Positions 4,498-34,425 of a stretch of 37,574 bases of DNA are shown one piece after another (position 1 is the first letter of the stretch; each line of letters opens with the position of its first letter). The translations under genes were made by a program, and so were the position numbers. The notes under the pieces are model-generated. The model did no database searches, was not told where the DNA came from, and saw nothing but the letters and a program-made list of their open reading frames with translations. Source of the DNA: Candidatus Neomarinimicrobiota bacterium (GTDB taxonomy: Bacteria; Fidelibacterota; UBA8477; JABMPR01); contig JAYEKW010000113.1 of the NCBI GenBank assembly GCA_034716895.1, positions 1-37,574 of the forward strand. Direction: 5' to 3'.

Positions 4498-5640
4498 ATG
4501 AAATTTACAAATCAATGGGTATTGAAATTATTCCTTATTCCTTTTTCCGTTTTTCTTGTACAGTCTTGTACTGAAGAGTTAAGCATCGCTAATTTTGAGG
4601 ATGCATTTAAAAATTATGAACAGGAACTCCGCATCGAGGGAATGCTTGATCTGACTGATTTTTCCCGATCGGTGATCCGGGTAGATAAAACGATATTGAT
4701 TACTGATACATCTCTTTACAATGGAATTGACGATAACGGAGACTGGGAATCCTACACCGACCTGAATGGTAATGGTCGCTGGGATGAGGATGAGCCGCTG
4801 AATGATGATGTGGGCATTAAACAACATGGTCCCCATGGTGAGTATGAAGGGCGGGGGAATGGTCAACCTGATCCAGGTGAACCCCATATCGATGACTATA
4901 TTGAAATTTTACCCCAAATCCATGATTCAACCATGACATCGGTCATTTTGCGGGAATCTGGCGCGCTGGTTGCTGAATTTAAATGGTCCTGGCAGGCAGG
5001 CTACTTTGATGAGAGCTTTGGTGGGCGTGGTCCGTCCTCTGAAGTTGTTAAAAACACTTATATCAGGTACACTTATGGGGGGTATATACCAACACTCCAA
5101 TTTTCAGAAGTAGTGCTGGTGCCGGGGACAGAATATACAATGGAACTGACTACTGCAGATGGCAGGATCATTACAGCCTCCACCATACCCGTAGATGATC
5201 CCCTGAATGTACAGTGGCCCGGAACAACGCAGGAAGTCGATACCATCAATGTTTCAACGCTTAACTATGCCTCTCTAACCTGGAATACACCCATTGAGAC
5301 AAATTTTTGTGGAGTGATCATGGATGAGGTCTTCACTGCAGATTCAGTCCGTGGGTTTTACTCAGCTTTGGCAGTTGCTACAAGCCTTGATACTTCAAAT
5401 GGCCTACCTCTCTATCCAGCCAATTTTATCGGGATTCCTCTGGGGCTTTACAAAATGGTATTGGAATCGTATAGTTATGAATATGGGAATTATGTGTATT
5501 CGGGCCTGCCTTTAAGAGACCGGGGACTTTCCAACTGGCGGGATCAGGATGGAAACGTAGTTCTGGGTGCCTTTGGAGCAAAATCACCCATTGAATTTTA
5601 CCTGCGCTTTGTTGCTCCTCCGGATCCACCCAATGGTTGA
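4498..5640 (+). CDS. DUF4249-like lipoprotein with calcium-loop insert
   Basis: A surface or periplasmic lipoprotein of 380 aa. The signal peptide ends in the lipobox VQSC (Cys24). Order downstream of the TonB receptor (8-bp gap), size and the beta-rich body (for example EVVLVPGTEYTMELTTADG followed by a proline-containing strand) fit the DUF4249 family, which pairs with such receptors; the assignment rests on context and pattern rather than a profile search. Residues about 76-133 carry an insert of aspartate/asparagine loops, DLNGNGRWDEDEP and GRGNGQPDPGEPHID, resembling dockerin or thrombospondin-type-3 calcium loops. The product probably assists uptake by the receptor. The last 43 bp overlap the 3-prime end of the convergent EpmA-like gene. 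Confidence 0.75.
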   Translation: MKFTNQWVLKLFLIPFSVFLVQSCTEELSIANFEDAFKNYEQELRIEGMLDLTDFSRSVIRVDKTILITDTSLYNGIDDNGDWESYTDLNGNGRWDEDEPLNDDVGIKQHGPHGEYEGRGNGQPDPGEPHIDDYIEILPQIHDSTMTSVILRESGALVAEFKWSWQAGYFDESFGGRGPSSEVVKNTYIRYTYGGYIPTLQFSEVVLVPGTEYTMELTTADGRIITASTIPVDDPLNVQWPGTTQEVDTINVSTLNYASLTWNTPIETNFCGVIMDEVFTADSVRGFYSALAVATSLDTSNGLPLYPANFIGIPLGLYKMVLESYSYEYGNYVYSGLPLRDRGLSNWRDQDGNVVLGAFGAKSPIEFYLRFVAPPDPPNG

Positions 5641-6602
5641 AGAAAAAATTGACGTATATCTGATTCACCGGTAAGGACCATTAACAAACGTTCGATGCCG
5701 ATGGCAATACCACCTGTGGGCTTCATCTTTCCCACAGCTTTGATCAGATCCTCATCCACGGGATGGGGTGGGTACCCGAGAATCTTGCGCTCCAGGTTAG
5801 CATCCTTAAAACGTTTGATCTGTTCTTTTGAATTAATTAACTCACTAAAAGCATTGCCAATCTCGACTCCCTGGATATAGAGTTCGAACCGCTCAGCCCA
5901 TTGGGGATCAGACGCTTTGATCTTGGAAAGAGCAGCCATGGAAGCGGGGTAATCATAGACGATTTCGGGTTGACTTATTCCAAGCTTAGATTCAATCAGC
6001 TTCATCCAGACTCGAAAAAAGATGTCCTCAAAAGGTTCATTCTCAGGGATCGATTCATTTAAGACCTGCCGGGCTGCTCTAAGCCAATACCTTTGGTTCC
6101 TCAACCCCTGCTCTAGATCCAGGTCAGCATATTTGTGAAAGCAGTCACTGACGGAAGTGCGTTGAATACTCTGATCCCAGCTGAACCCGGGAGGGGTATC
6201 AATAGATTTAAAATCTTCACTCAGGGTGTGTAATAGGGCATCGACATCATCCATGATATCCTGATAATTTCCAGGACGGTACCATTCCAACATATTGAAT
6301 TCAGGGTGATGTTGGGGGCCAAGCTCACCATGATTGCGGAAAACCCTGGCAATTTCAAAGACTTTCTCAAAACCGTTGCCCAGCGCTTTCTTGATCGCAA
6401 ACTCAGGAGAAGTAGGAAGGTAGTATTCCTGAATTTCGTTTCCATGGTCAAGATAACTGGTTTTAAAGCCATGGAGATGGACCTCTATCCCGGGTGAGGG
6501 CACCAACAGGGGAGTCTCCAGCTCAAAGAAGCCTTGCTCCATAAACCATGTGCGGATCAGATTTATTAAGGCGCGTTTTTGTTCGATGCGGTGTCTATTC
6601 AT
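5598..6602 (-). CDS. epmA: EF-P lysine ligase EpmA/PoxA-like (class II LysRS catalytic domain only)
   Basis: A 334-aa stand-alone class II lysyl-tRNA-synthetase-like catalytic domain without the N-terminal anticodon-binding OB fold, the hallmark of EpmA (also PoxA/GenX/YjeA), which attaches (R)-beta-lysine to elongation factor P. Visible are the substrate-binding segment YYLPTSPEFAIKKAL, class II motif 2 (FEIARVFRNHGELG then HHPEFNMLEWYRPG) and motif 3 (GGIAIGIERLLMVLTG). Length matches E. coli EpmA (about 325 aa). A short basic Gly-rich tail, LGGSGGATKRR, follows the conserved end and lies in the overlap with the convergent lipoprotein gene. Neither EF-P nor the aminomutase EpmB is in the window, so alpha-lysine or another substrate cannot be excluded. 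Start at ATG 6602 leaves a full catalytic domain. Confidence 0.88.
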   Translation of the reverse strand: MNRHRIEQKRALINLIRTWFMEQGFFELETPLLVPSPGIEVHLHGFKTSYLDHGNEIQEYYLPTSPEFAIKKALGNGFEKVFEIARVFRNHGELGPQHHPEFNMLEWYRPGNYQDIMDDVDALLHTLSEDFKSIDTPPGFSWDQSIQRTSVSDCFHKYADLDLEQGLRNQRYWLRAARQVLNESIPENEPFEDIFFRVWMKLIESKLGISQPEIVYDYPASMAALSKIKASDPQWAERFELYIQGVEIGNAFSELINSKEQIKRFKDANLERKILGYPPHPVDEDLIKAVGKMKPTGGIAIGIERLLMVLTGESDIRQFFLQPLGGSGGATKRR

Positions 6603-6905
6603 GGACCCAATATGTAATAATCATGCGTGGTTTCAAAACATTGCTCTCTAAACACCCCACGATTATACGCCCCTCAAACTCGGCTATGCCTCGAACAAAG
6701 GTTCCTTATCCGTAGCTCACACTGGAGCTCCAATCCAACCCTTTTCAATGAACTCAGATCACTCAGAGTCCTTACTCCCCAACCCCCAACCAAATTCACC
6801 ACTCACCACTCATCACTCATCACTCGTCACTTGTCACTCGTCACCCACCCCAACCTCCCAACCATAAACTCATTGAACTCATCAACTCACAAACTATTTT
6901 GAACA
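6603..6905. other. intergenic region between divergent epmA-like and polX genes
   Basis: About 300 bp with no credible gene. An open frame at 6627-6902 has a composition dominated by Ser, Thr, Leu and His that comes from the repeat inside it. It should hold divergent promoters, but I cannot point to convincing -35/-10 pairs. It contains the heptad repeat at 6801-6849, then a looser run of AACTCAT-like words up to the polX start. Confidence 0.6.
6801..6849. repeat. tandem 7-bp repeat (ACTCATC-type), seven units
   Basis: Seven consecutive heptamers without spacing errors: ACTCACC, ACTCATC twice, ACTCGTC, ACTTGTC, ACTCGTC, ACCCACC. Units differ by one or two bases. The array is C-rich on this strand and G-poor, and does not look coding. 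It lies 57 bp before polX. Confidence 0.85.
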
Positions 6906-8597
6906 ATGAATAATTCTCAAATCAGCGCCCGTATCAAACGTCTGTCTGCCATGATGACCCTTCTGGATGATAATCCACACAAGATCAGGGCTTTTGAAAA
7001 GGCCGCTCGCATCATCAGCGAGCATCCGGAAGAAATGGGTGTCCTCATTGATGAAGATCGTCTTAAAGCAGTCAGTGGCATTGGTGATACTTTGGCACAT
7101 ATCATCCTTTATTATGCTAAATCAGGAGGACCCGGGTTTGAAAAAGAATTGGAAGATCGCCTGCCAACCGGATTACCTGTCCTGCTCGATCTGAAAGGAC
7201 TGAGCCTGAAAAAAGTGCAAACCCTCTGGTTGGATCATGAGATCAGCAATATTACACTGCTGGAAGAAGCTTGCCGATCCAATACACTGGCTGGCTGGAG
7301 CGGTTTTGGCTCAAAACTGGAGCAGTTGCTTCTAAAATCCATTGCGTTTAAAGCAAGACATGTCAGCGATTTTCATTTAGATCTGGCATTGAAAGTGAGC
7401 CAGCTCTGGCACCAAAAATTGGCATCGCTGCCTTCGGTCAAACGGGTAGAACTCACTGGAAGACTTCGCCGACGCGATGACTTGATCAGGAGTGTTGACT
7501 TTATTGTGGAAGCCGATCTAGCTGTCCTGAAAAATGATCTTATACAATTCCAAAATTTTGATTTCACACATATTGAACCCATCTCGTTGAAGGATGACAC
7601 CGGTTTGCCCATTCAGCTTTGGATCAGCAGCAGTTCCGATTTTCAGTTGCGTCAGCTCGTGCTTACGGGGGGATCCGCTTATCTTGAGAAGATCAACTCA
7701 GCTTTAAGGGTAAAGGGTCTGACTCATGACCAGGGAAGCCGTGCCGATCTGGATGCGACAGGTCTAACTGAAGCTACTCTCTGTGAAGTCCTTCATATCC
7801 AATGGATCGAGCCGGAGCTGAGAGACAATTTTGATAGTTTTCCGCCAGATCGGACCCTGATCCAGGTCCAAGATATCAAAGGGGTCATCCACGCTCATTC
7901 CACCTGGAGCGATGGTAAAAATAGTTTGGAGCAGATGGTTAGAGCTGCCCGTGATCTGGGCTACCAGTATCTGGGCATCAGTGATCATTCTCAGGCAGCC
8001 TATTATGCAAATGGGCTAAAACCGGATCGAGTTAAAAAACAATGGGATCACATTGATAAACTAAATGACCAGTACCCGGACATCCATATTTTCAAGGGGA
8101 TCGAAGCAGATATTCTCAGTGATGGTCGTCTGGATTATGATGAGGAGTTACTGGCAGGTTTCGATCTTGTTATTGCCTCGATTCACAGCCATTTCCATTT
8201 GGATCGGGACAAACAAACAAACCGGATCATCAGGGCTTTACAAAGTCCCTTTACAACCATATTGGGACATCCTACAGGTCGCATGTTACTGTCTCGGGAG
8301 GGTTATGATCCTGATTTGCCCAGTATCATTGAGGCGGCTGCTGAATACGATAAGATCATCGAGATCAACACCACCCCTAAACGGCTTGACCTGGATTGGC
8401 GATATGCTGCCCTGGCCCGGGAAAAAGGTGTGAAATTTTCCATCAATCCTGATGCACACAGCTCAAAAGGTTTGGAAACAATACCCCTGGGAGTTTCCAT
8501 GGCTCGTAAGGGTGGATTGGGTCCAGAAGACATCATTAACACCCTGTCAACGAGTGAGTTGACCAACTATTTGAGAAAGCACCACTGGACAAAATGA
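6906..8597 (+). CDS. polX: PolX-family protein: HhH, degenerate pol-beta-like domain, intact PHP phosphoesterase
   Basis: This 563-aa protein has the full PolX architecture (B. subtilis PolX is about 570 aa): an N-terminal 8-kDa/HhH region (AVSGIGDTLAHI, near 54-65), a pol-beta-like palm (about 160-310) and a C-terminal PHP domain (about 325-560). The PHP metal ligands are all present: H329 and H331 (IHAHSTWSD), D336, D360-H361, E400 (GIEADI), H427, H455 and D516-H518 (NPDAHS). The palm is degenerate. The usual GSLRR...DxD reads GRLRR...RSVDF, so the first catalytic Asp is S196; the third Asp (normally in VDxR) is Q237; and FTGSxxHN reads LTGGSAYLEKIN. I infer a 3-prime exonuclease or AP-endonuclease-type repair enzyme that has lost polymerisation. 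It overlaps nth by ATGA, so the two are translationally coupled. Confidence 0.9.
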   Translation: MNNSQISARIKRLSAMMTLLDDNPHKIRAFEKAARIISEHPEEMGVLIDEDRLKAVSGIGDTLAHIILYYAKSGGPGFEKELEDRLPTGLPVLLDLKGLSLKKVQTLWLDHEISNITLLEEACRSNTLAGWSGFGSKLEQLLLKSIAFKARHVSDFHLDLALKVSQLWHQKLASLPSVKRVELTGRLRRRDDLIRSVDFIVEADLAVLKNDLIQFQNFDFTHIEPISLKDDTGLPIQLWISSSSDFQLRQLVLTGGSAYLEKINSALRVKGLTHDQGSRADLDATGLTEATLCEVLHIQWIEPELRDNFDSFPPDRTLIQVQDIKGVIHAHSTWSDGKNSLEQMVRAARDLGYQYLGISDHSQAAYYANGLKPDRVKKQWDHIDKLNDQYPDIHIFKGIEADILSDGRLDYDEELLAGFDLVIASIHSHFHLDRDKQTNRIIRALQSPFTTILGHPTGRMLLSREGYDPDLPSIIEAAAEYDKIIEINTTPKRLDLDWRYAALAREKGVKFSINPDAHSSKGLETIPLGVSMARKGGLGPEDIINTLSTSELTNYLRKHHWTK

Positions 8598-9262
8598 AAG
8601 AGTCAATCAAAAACAGGCAATCCAGGATGCGGCTTATTCTGGACCGATTATATGAGTCATATCCGAACTCACACTGCAGTCTTGATCATCGCTCACCCTT
8701 TCAGTTGCTGATCTCAACCATGTTATCAGCTCAGTGTACTGATGATCGGGTCAATAAAGTGACACCTGAATTGTTCAAGTTTTATCCTACAGCAGCGGCT
8801 ATGGCTGGAGCTTCAGTTGAGCATTTGGCTGAGCTTGTCCACTCCACCGGTTTTTATAATAGCAAGTCCAAGAACATGAGTGCTTGCGCCAGGATGTTGC
8901 TGGAAGAACATGGTGGTGAAGTTCCCGGTGATCTGAAAACGTTGATCAAGATACCTGGAGTAGGTCGAAAAACGGCAAATGTTGTGTTGGGAACGGCTTT
9001 TGGCATTCCAGGCCTTGTCGTTGATACTCATGTGATTCGCCTGGCCAATCTTCTTGAATTCACCACCCACAGTGACGCAGTAAAAATTGAACGTGAATTG
9101 ATGTCCATCGTCGATGAAGAACACTGGGTGATGTTTACTCACCTCATTATTGATCATGGACGAGCCGTTTGTATTGCCAGACGTCCTCAATGTCACGTCT
9201 GTGTGCTTGCTGAATACTGTCCATCGGTTTTGCCCGACGAAGCTATCAGAAAAAAGAAATAG
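8594..9262 (+). CDS. nth: endonuclease III (DNA glycosylase/AP lyase)
   Basis: A base-excision repair enzyme that removes oxidised pyrimidines and cleaves the abasic site. All signatures are present: the helix-hairpin-helix LIKIPGVGRKTANVVLG with catalytic Lys126, the catalytic Asp144 in VVDTHVIRL, and the 4Fe-4S loop C193-x6-C200-x2-C203-x5-C209 at the C-terminus. At 222 aa it is close to the E. coli enzyme (211 aa). The ATG overlaps the polX stop (ATGA). Coupling to a PolX-type nuclease suggests a shared role in processing abasic or blocked ends. Confidence 0.96.
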   Translation: MKESIKNRQSRMRLILDRLYESYPNSHCSLDHRSPFQLLISTMLSAQCTDDRVNKVTPELFKFYPTAAAMAGASVEHLAELVHSTGFYNSKSKNMSACARMLLEEHGGEVPGDLKTLIKIPGVGRKTANVVLGTAFGIPGLVVDTHVIRLANLLEFTTHSDAVKIERELMSIVDEEHWVMFTHLIIDHGRAVCIARRPQCHVCVLAEYCPSVLPDEAIRKKK

Positions 9263-9266
9263 ATTA

Positions 9267-9542
9267 ATGGACACATCGATCAGTTTTCGAGTTACCGGCA
9301 GGGTCCAGGGGGTTGGATTCAGAGCTTTTATTCAGCGAACCGGGCAACAATTAGGTCTTTCTGGTTGGGTCAAGAATAATGCAGATGGTTCTGTTAGCGG
9401 CTTGGCAGAAGGAGAACAAGGACTCTTAGTGGAATTCATGAAACAGGTGAAGATTGGGAATCGCTGGTCAAGTGTAGACGGGTTGGAAGAACAGCCACTG
9501 AGATACAGTGGTGAGTTTTCAGGTTTTGAAATTCGGTATTAG
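9267..9542 (+). CDS. acyP: acylphosphatase
   Basis: A small (91 aa) cytosolic enzyme hydrolysing carboxyl-phosphate anhydrides such as acetyl phosphate. The phosphate loop VQGVGFR with catalytic Arg19 and the second motif GWVKNNADGSV with the catalytic Asn are both clear, and the chain ends in the expected FEIRY strand. The same frame is open further upstream to 9150, but that stretch lies inside nth. The ATG at 9267, four bases after the nth stop, gives exactly the family length. It probably forms one transcript with polX-nth. Confidence 0.94.
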   Translation: MDTSISFRVTGRVQGVGFRAFIQRTGQQLGLSGWVKNNADGSVSGLAEGEQGLLVEFMKQVKIGNRWSSVDGLEEQPLRYSGEFSGFEIRY

Positions 9543-31803: not shown

Positions 31804-34425
31804 TCAATTAAAAACGGGAACGATCTCCATACTTTTTAAGCGAAATTGATTCAATTTGCCATTCATATTCTGCACTGGCAAAGTCTCCTGGTTCAGGATT
31901 AAAGTATTCTGACCGGCTTGGAATTGTGCTTTCAGCCAGGCGCTTTCTTCCCAACTATCCCATGAACCAGTATGTGGGAAACTGACCATTTGTTCCAACC
32001 ACCACTCATTAATCGTGAGTTTGGCTAAACTACAGGTGTTGCCCGTACTGATGGATCCAGACCCATTACTGTAAAAAAACCGTAGGAGGTAATTCCCCCC
32101 TGAGGGCACTGAGAAGTCCATTTTGATAAAGGCTATATCTTGTCCCAATTCAACATAATAGGGCTGCTCTGGGGCTAAAAGCACCATGGCAGAGGGTCCC
32201 CGGTAATAAGGTTGACCTGGCAAGCTCAGGGTAGTTGTTGAATCCATCGCTCGCAGCGTGTAAAAACCCATCAAACTATCCGGCAGGCTCGTTGGGGAAC
32301 TGGTCAGGGTATCTAAAATTTGACCATTTACTTCTAAAAGACTTACCCCGGTTTCGCTCCACCAGATCAGCGTATCTGCAGACCAGGAGGTCTTTGGGAT
32401 TTTGGGAAGCAGGTGTTCTACACGTTCTATTTTAGAGGGGCTGGTATCCCGGTTTTGCTTTAGCTCGATCATAATATCAAGTGGCTCGCCCCTTAATGGA
32501 ATCGGTTTACCGGGGTGTTGTTGAGTGCCATTCACAGAAATAGCTGAGATTGATGACCCACTGCCTTTCAGTATGATGGAAAGGGGTGTATCATGTAAAG
32601 CTAGATTGGTAATTGAGAAATGATCCCACTGGAAGGGATTGTTTGGTGCCAGAACCAGTTCAAACTCTTTCAGACCAAAATCGTAATTGACGGAGAGACC
32701 AAATAGACCCTTGTAGATTGCTCCCAGCCAGGCGGCATCACTCCACAACTGTCGGTCAGAATTGATCTCGGTCTGATCAGGCCTGCCTGAAGCGTATTCA
32801 AAATTTTCACGATGGGTTAGAAAAAGGGCTGCTGACCTGATCAAACCATTAAAACTATGGTGGTAAGCCTCCTGGTTCTCAACTTGTTTGGCAGCCAGAA
32901 GTGCATAAGCTTCCACAAAGGGCCAAATTGCCTTGTTGTGATAGGGTGGTGAATGCGGCAATTGATGAGAGATCACAGGGCTGCCATACTGACTGCGGGG
33001 ATAGGTGCTTACGAGTTGTGCAGCCACTTGAGCAAATGAATTACAGAATAGAATACCTAATGATTCGCCAAGCAGGTCACGGTGAGCAGCAGGCAACCAG
33101 GCTGGGCTCGAGATCACATAGCTGGAAGGGGCACCGAGCGATTCATTCCAAAAATGTCTGAGAATATTATGATCAAGTCGCGTAACCAGCTCCGGCCAGG
33201 ACCGGGCACCATCAGAATTATTGTTTGCCAGGGCTAATCCAATTTCTAAAGCGCGCTTAAAGATAACATTAGTGGAAAGAGCCTGGGAGGCATGAATATC
33301 TGCTGGAGACATCCACTCAGAATAGGTTTGCTCACGCCAATCCTCAAAACTGGTTTCACCAAGCAGCATTCCCGATACCGGATCGCGATTCCAGAGCAGG
33401 TCTTCTTTTAGAGCATTGATGATCGGTTCTCGAATCTCATCCAACCAGGCGTGATCACCGGATGCTAAAAAAACTTCCCAGGCAGCCAGGGTCCACAGGT
33501 GGCGGTCACTGGAAATCGGCCAGGAACCACCGGTGCCAGTATCCTGGATGATACGCTTATTTGGGCTCAATTTTGCTCTTAAACTGGCTTTGACATTCTC
33601 CGGAAAGAGATAAGCCAATGAGAGCATGGCTGAGTAGGAAATGTCTCGGGTCCAAACACCCCGCCACTTCTTCCCTGCTGAAAATGCACTATCACTCCGA
33701 ATGTTCAGGATCGTTTCTTCCAGAGCCAGGTTGGTCAGAGCTTCCAGGAGTGGTGCCTGGGGACTGGAAAAGTGTGGGAGCTCTGATATATCTTCTGTTA
33801 GAGCCCATGTACGTGAACCAGTATCTGTATCTGGCGGCTCAAAACGGAGGCTGAGTTTATAGATCGAATCCAGCTCTGAATCATCAAACCGTAAGTGATC
33901 CAAGCCATTGGGGTCATCCCAGATCCACGTCATGGGAGCGGTTCCTCCAGCCAGGTAGAGACCCTCAAAAGAGTTGGCATAAATCGTATCATTTGTGGGA
34001 GTTATGTAGAAACCGGAATTTGTAAATGCCGTCAGTACCGGTCTCAGATCAACCCGAAAATGGACGTTGGCAGCATGCTCAAGGGGAGGGGGATCTCCAG
34101 GAATCACGGGTGCATGAATGCCAAAGCTAAGGGTGGGAGCATAAAACTCACTGATCCCCCGAGGTACTATGAGCTGATGATCCTGGCCAAATCCAGCCTC
34201 ATTGTCACGCCCATTCAAACTCAGTTTAAAAATGATGGGCTGCGACAGAGTTTGATCAGTCTCCATTGGGTAATTGGACTCAAGCTGAGTAGGACTAAAG
34301 GCTAGGGCTGTAAATTTGCCTTCCAGCACACGATCCGCTTTAACCTGGAATCCATCAGGATCTGTTTCGCAACTGTAGAACAGGCAAAATGCTAGAATGA
34401 GAATAGAGAAATATTTAAAATTCAT
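31804..34425 (-). CDS. lipoprotein with six-hairpin glycosidase-like domain and C-terminal carbohydrate-binding-like domain
   Basis: An 873-aa lipoprotein (lipobox FYSC, Cys19). Residues about 30-215 form a beta-sandwich. Residues about 225-620 look like an (alpha/alpha)6 barrel of the six-hairpin glycosidase superfamily: KKWRGVWTRDISYSAMLSLAY (about 252-272), GGSWPISSDRHLWTLAAWEV (about 299-318), GETSFEDWREQTYSEWMSP and RQLWSDAAWLGAIYKGLFGL. The conserved acidic residues in RDISYS and SFEDWREQ are candidate catalytic acids. A beta-rich region follows (about 620-720), then a galactose-binding-like (CBM6/35-type) C-terminal domain (SGGNYLLRFFYSNGSG, WEESAWLKAQFQAGQNTLIL). I cannot name the GH family. 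It probably degrades an oligo- or polysaccharide at the cell surface. There is no SusCD pair alongside. Confidence 0.78.
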   Translation of the reverse strand: MNFKYFSILILAFCLFYSCETDPDGFQVKADRVLEGKFTALAFSPTQLESNYPMETDQTLSQPIIFKLSLNGRDNEAGFGQDHQLIVPRGISEFYAPTLSFGIHAPVIPGDPPPLEHAANVHFRVDLRPVLTAFTNSGFYITPTNDTIYANSFEGLYLAGGTAPMTWIWDDPNGLDHLRFDDSELDSIYKLSLRFEPPDTDTGSRTWALTEDISELPHFSSPQAPLLEALTNLALEETILNIRSDSAFSAGKKWRGVWTRDISYSAMLSLAYLFPENVKASLRAKLSPNKRIIQDTGTGGSWPISSDRHLWTLAAWEVFLASGDHAWLDEIREPIINALKEDLLWNRDPVSGMLLGETSFEDWREQTYSEWMSPADIHASQALSTNVIFKRALEIGLALANNNSDGARSWPELVTRLDHNILRHFWNESLGAPSSYVISSPAWLPAAHRDLLGESLGILFCNSFAQVAAQLVSTYPRSQYGSPVISHQLPHSPPYHNKAIWPFVEAYALLAAKQVENQEAYHHSFNGLIRSAALFLTHRENFEYASGRPDQTEINSDRQLWSDAAWLGAIYKGLFGLSVNYDFGLKEFELVLAPNNPFQWDHFSITNLALHDTPLSIILKGSGSSISAISVNGTQQHPGKPIPLRGEPLDIMIELKQNRDTSPSKIERVEHLLPKIPKTSWSADTLIWWSETGVSLLEVNGQILDTLTSSPTSLPDSLMGFYTLRAMDSTTTLSLPGQPYYRGPSAMVLLAPEQPYYVELGQDIAFIKMDFSVPSGGNYLLRFFYSNGSGSISTGNTCSLAKLTINEWWLEQMVSFPHTGSWDSWEESAWLKAQFQAGQNTLILNQETLPVQNMNGKLNQFRLKSMEIVPVFN

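Follow-up and report, generated by a model that had tools for sequence, protein, structure and literature searches.

A noncanonical PolX beside nth in Candidatus Neomarinimicrobiota, with an altered polymerase site and an intact PHP nuclease site

Noncanonical PolX are known from the work of Prostova et al. (2022, NAR; PMC9226535) as family X proteins with an altered catalytic triad, a degraded dNTP site and an intact PHP site. They made up 27.5% of the PolX set in that study and many of them, though not all, also carry deletions in the palm and fingers. Those of two Deinococcus species are without polymerase activity and are strong Mn-dependent 3′-5′ exonucleases, and the polymerase site of D. 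radiodurans PolX binds no metal; template-dependent synthesis by this protein (triad AEE), an earlier report from another laboratory, was not reproduced (PMC9226535). In phylogeny their main cluster is that of Bacteroidetes and Deinococcus. Several independent origins of noncanonical PolX were already reported, and the neighbourhood analysis of the same study names LigD, ZapA, MutS2 and others, nth not being among them (PMC9226535). A 2026 survey concurs with this picture (PMC12926913). For the nuclease half of the protein, residues F440, R469, R474, N498, R503 and K545 of B. subtilis PolX have been found to be required for PHP nuclease activity (Rodriguez et al. 2019; PMC6616362).

The locus described here lies on a stretch of 37,574 nucleotides, hereafter the window, from a Candidatus Neomarinimicrobiota bacterium (contig JAYEKW010000113.1 of assembly GCA_034716895.1). 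It carries the only PolX copy of its genome, with the following features.

6906–8597, + strand: polX, noncanonical family X DNA polymerase/PHP nuclease, 563 aa (open reading frame, Pfam, NCBIfam, PDB and alignment)
6906–7145, + strand: 8-kDa HhH domain, residues 1–80 (HHH_8 match; genus mean identity 0.75)
7101–7103, + strand: codon for Ile66, which takes the place of Pol beta Lys72, the dRP-lyase nucleophile (alignment)
7437–7655, + strand: palm region, residues 178–250, catalytic triad altered (alignment)
7458–7502, + strand: GRLRR...RSVDF motif, with S186 changed to R, the first Asp replaced by Ser196 and the second, D198, kept (alignment)
7614–7616, + strand: codon for Gln237, in place of the third catalytic Asp (alignment)
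7659–7697, + strand: degraded dNTP-binding motif VLTGGSAYLEKIN (alignment)
7857–8585, + strand: PHP nuclease domain, residues 318–560, with all nine metal ligands and all six DNA-path residues retained

The protein has full-length PDB matches to D. radiodurans PolX (2W9M, 2.8e-85) and T. thermophilus PolX (3AU2, 6e-73). A Foldseek search with its predicted fold ranked 2W9M and 3AUO at the top; the fold model comes from an input alignment three sequences deep, with a mean pLDDT of 61 and a pTM of 0.43, and its side-chain positions are unreliable. Pfam matches cover HHH_8 and PHP and there is none for the polymerase-palm domain, which is consistent with a core that would be degenerate. The NCBIfam PolX model gives 401 bits, slightly below its cut-off of 426 bits.

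Aligned with T. thermophilus PolX (D198, D200 and the third Asp), the triad of the window protein reads S196, D198 and Q237, and the set of three acidic palm metal ligands of canonical PolX is absent (S196, Q237). In the DNA, GRLRR starts at 7458 and RSVDF at 7488, with the codons for S196 at 7491–7493, D198 at 7497–7499 and Q237 at 7614–7616. Where T. thermophilus has GSARR the window protein has GRLRR (GS to GR), and its dNTP site shows a steric gate changed from Y to V, GS changed to GG, K263 changed to S and the N279 equivalent changed to L. The LTGGSAYLEKIN motif begins at residue 253 (7662). The palm interval is 73 residues long, against 76–79 in canonical rows, and the fingers 55 against 57–69, both with boundaries that differ from those of PMC9226535. 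All nine PHP ligands are present (H329, H331, D336, H361, E400, H427, H455, D516 and H518, or HHDHEHHDH), as they are in every altered row of the alignment, and the equivalents of the B. subtilis DNA-path residues, mapped by motif and a constant offset, are F430, R459, R464, N488, R493 and K535, invariant in the genus. An earlier note on this DNA had claimed these triad changes (Ser196 and Gln237 within GRLRR...RSVDF), a degraded nucleotide-binding motif and a complete PHP metal site. The alignment bears out all three, with VLTGGSAYL standing where T. thermophilus PolX has YLTGSKAHS and each of the nine ligands in place. The segment 7455–7661, to which it assigned the change, does enclose the triad motifs but ends one base short of the LTGGSAYLEKIN/LTGG motif, at 7662.

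Three traits, namely substitution of catalytic acids, substitution in the dNTP site and an intact PHP site, mark the window protein as a noncanonical PolX, in which, by analogy with the studied relatives, synthesis would be absent and the PHP domain would be a Mn-dependent 3′-5′ exonuclease. With the group of PMC9226535 it shares the altered Asp triad and dNTP site, the intact PHP ligands and the five-domain layout. It differs in its apparently mild deletions (the palm is 4 residues shorter than in T. thermophilus over the same interval), in its occurrence in Neomarinimicrobiota beside nth and without NHEJ genes, and in that canonical DDD PolX of its phylum fall in the same branch. The closest solved relative, and the best PDB match in both sequence and fold, is D. 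radiodurans PolX (2W9M), which has likewise lost the first Asp, keeps nine of nine PHP ligands and lacks a Lys72 equivalent (E there), but has a larger palm deletion, AEE instead of SDQ and about one third identity. The PolX of T. thermophilus and B. subtilis share the domain order and the PHP nuclease, with all B. subtilis DNA-path residues conserved, whereas they are active polymerases with DDD and the dNTP pocket in place. A plasmid-borne PolX of Legionella adelaidensis (L093, 532–2070) has the triad SDH and is annotated as DNA polymerase/3′-5′ exonuclease PolX. The class has been known since 2022; this example adds another phylum, the linkage to nth and a loss that was probably independent.

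In a survey of 245 Neomarinimicrobiota genomes, full-length relatives were found in 13 genomes of the genus, including that of the window, giving 14 proteins as one genome has two copies. Outside these 13, a C-terminal PolX fragment occurs in one more genome, and full-length relatives occur in a few other families. Triad position 1 is S, R or A in all 14 genus proteins, position 2 (198) is always D or E, so that one metal ligand remains, and position 3 is Q, N or H in 13 and E in one. Elsewhere in the phylum the sister family has NNR or NNH, one further family NDD and two others DDD. As judged from these residues, the predicted loss of the polymerase site is clade-wide and graded across the phylum. 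Chance or sequencing error as its source is ruled out, since 13 further full-length genus proteins, from other genomes, carry the same class of change with intact frames.

The locus also links polX to nth and is organised as follows.

5598–6602, − strand: epmA/genX, encoding EF-P lysine aminoacylase, upstream of polX and divergent from it
8594–9262, + strand: nth (endonuclease III); its start and the polX stop share ATGA (8594–8597)
9267–9542, + strand: acylphosphatase gene, next in the same gene run (Pfam)

Across the genus, polX and nth either overlap (ATGA) or are a few bases apart, with the acylphosphatase gene following and epmA divergent upstream. Three congeners (G235/L077, G236/L072 and G240/L065) lack polX and have nth 65–75 bases after epmA at the same site; this clean absence implies that polX is dispensable and that Nth does not depend on PolX. 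The order in the sister family is polX, a GCV_T-domain gene and nth, in G201 polX is followed by nth, and in G023 (L079, 5291–10085) a canonical DDD polX precedes a GCV_T-domain gene, a transglutaminase-like gene and nth. The linkage is thus seen in four families and, because one of these has a canonical PolX, predates loss of the polymerase site within the order of the window. The proposal that the protein works with the overlapping nth gene holds as gene linkage, in the genus and in other families, and not as a functional partnership. Elsewhere in the window, an intergenic heptamer array (TCACTCA/TCACTCG) lies at 6796–6849, upstream of polX, similar arrays occurring on five contigs of the same genome (C24, C35, C113, C165 and C239), and an 873-aa open reading frame (31804–34425, − strand) has no Pfam match.

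In a tree built without the palm and fingers columns and without Bacteroidota rows, the window protein falls together with the altered PolX of D. radiodurans and Alphaproteobacteria (29 rows, 100/97). Two canonical Neomarinimicrobiota PolX (L017 and L018) neighbour the order of the window within this branch of otherwise altered proteins. A single clade of all altered rows is rejected, moderately (AU p 0.035; 0.020 without D. radiodurans and 0.039 also without L016). Since canonical DDD PolX of the phylum branch inside the altered group, an independent loss of the polymerase site in the Neomarinimicrobiota lineage is suggested by the tree; barring a regain of the triad, repeated loss is the simpler interpretation. 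Plasmid records gave no Bacteroidota PolX, a scan of genome contigs returned Neomarinimicrobiota only, and a scan of viral contigs with the genus alignment gave no match.

At the position of the Pol beta Lys72/Pol lambda nucleophile the window protein has no lysine (Ile66) and is therefore predicted to be without a Lys72-type dRP-lyase. Among the first 43 rows, the equivalent lysine was present in 15/15 canonical PolX and missing in 27 of the 28 altered ones. Added canonical rows from Listeria (I), Staphylococcus (V) and a viral contig (R) also lack it, a total of 3/20 canonical PolX. A general joint loss of this lysine and the triad, which would have contrasted with the N-terminal domain described as unaltered in noncanonical PolX (PMC9226535), was dropped in view of these canonical exceptions and of only three phylogenetically independent pairs (p 0.5).

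Taken together, the window protein is very probably a noncanonical PolX in which a polymerase-dead Pol-beta-like core serves as a DNA-binding scaffold for a working PHP nuclease. The same observations could also reflect early decay, with polymerase activity gone and the whole protein drifting toward a pseudogene. Indeed, conservation within the genus is lowest in the palm and fingers (mean identity 0.49 and 0.47, against 0.59 for the thumb, 0.75 for the 8-kDa domain and 0.77 for PHP), and polX has been lost in three congeners. Yet each of the 14 genus copies is full length and free of internal stops, the PHP catalytic and DNA-path residues are invariant, and almost all domain comparisons, those of the palm among them, give a dN/dS well below 1, which largely refutes decay and leaves it scarcely credible. 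For pairs with usable dS the values are 0.06–0.15 for PHP, 0–0.10 for the 8-kDa domain, 0.16–0.22 for the palm and mostly 0.20–0.32 for the fingers; a single fingers value of 2.2 is unreliable (dS 0.03) and more distant pairs are near saturation. In a pair of canonical PolX of the same phylum, the palm is the best conserved domain (0.90). These figures fit a palm and fingers that would form a relaxed but constrained scaffold, evolving faster than the rest of the protein. The earlier note had read the protein as now a nuclease, perhaps of a distinct repair subfamily instead of random decay, and had asked whether the losses are clade-wide. All 14 full-length genus proteins are altered and in frame, and the alignment, the clade-wide state and purifying selection with a retained PHP site support a PolX that has probably lost its polymerase site and kept its nuclease; the subfamily, clade-wide and selected as it is, matches the noncanonical PolX of PMC9226535 and is not new. 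Polymerisation could alternatively persist through D198 and a displaced acid, for example D230 or D204, as D/E at 198 and D230 are conserved throughout the genus and the AEE protein of D. radiodurans was once reported active. This is highly improbable: degradation extends to the dNTP pocket, with its steric gate, GS cis-peptide and N279 equivalent, N occupies triad position 2 in the sister family, and the Deinococcus noncanonical PolX are inactive, that of D. radiodurans with a metal-free polymerase site (PMC9226535).

A further question is which DNA ends such a nuclease would process. In other phyla, noncanonical PolX show a statistical association with Ku/LigD NHEJ (PMC9226535), and plasmids of Bradyrhizobium and M. 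huakuii carry ligD beside an altered polX, so that the window protein might process the ends of double-strand breaks instead of acting in base excision repair. However, no match to Ku or LigD was obtained in any of 20 genomes (its own and 19 relatives), with a positive B. subtilis control, and an NHEJ partnership through these proteins was rejected; the conserved neighbour is nth. Ends could still go through alternative pathways, and break processing remains an unlikely, though not negligible, reading. As to other repair genes, polA and an xth gene are present in the genome of the window, while nfo was not found there or in any of 12 genomes of the genus that were searched. With xth present, there is a second candidate AP endonuclease besides PolX, and a role for PolX as the sole one was rejected.

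Lyase cleavage by endonuclease III leaves a blocked 3′ end. In the mechanism that we propose, the Pol-beta-like core of the window PolX would perform no synthesis and would hold DNA as a scaffold, while the C-terminal PHP domain, by analogy a Mn-dependent 3′-5′ exonuclease, AP endonuclease or 3′-end-cleaning enzyme, would trim or unblock the 3′ ends generated by Nth in base excision repair, trimming being an activity of its relatives; the gap would then be filled by Pol I. That the protein trims 3′ ends alongside Nth, ahead of Pol I, is a tentative proposal drawn from gene linkage. Somewhat more doubtful is a fuller history in which polX joined nth while still a polymerase, lost its site independently of the Alphaproteobacteria and Deinococcus proteins, and is now a 3′-end-cleaning nuclease dedicated to Nth repair and not an NHEJ factor.

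The window PolX alone does not alter the known picture of the family. It extends polymerase-dead PolX to another phylum and suggests repeated loss of the polymerase site within a single branch. It also provides a natural case of a PolX that occurs with a base-excision glycosylase and without NHEJ, and thus lets one ask whether the conserved role of PolX may be general 3′-end trimming rather than NHEJ in particular.
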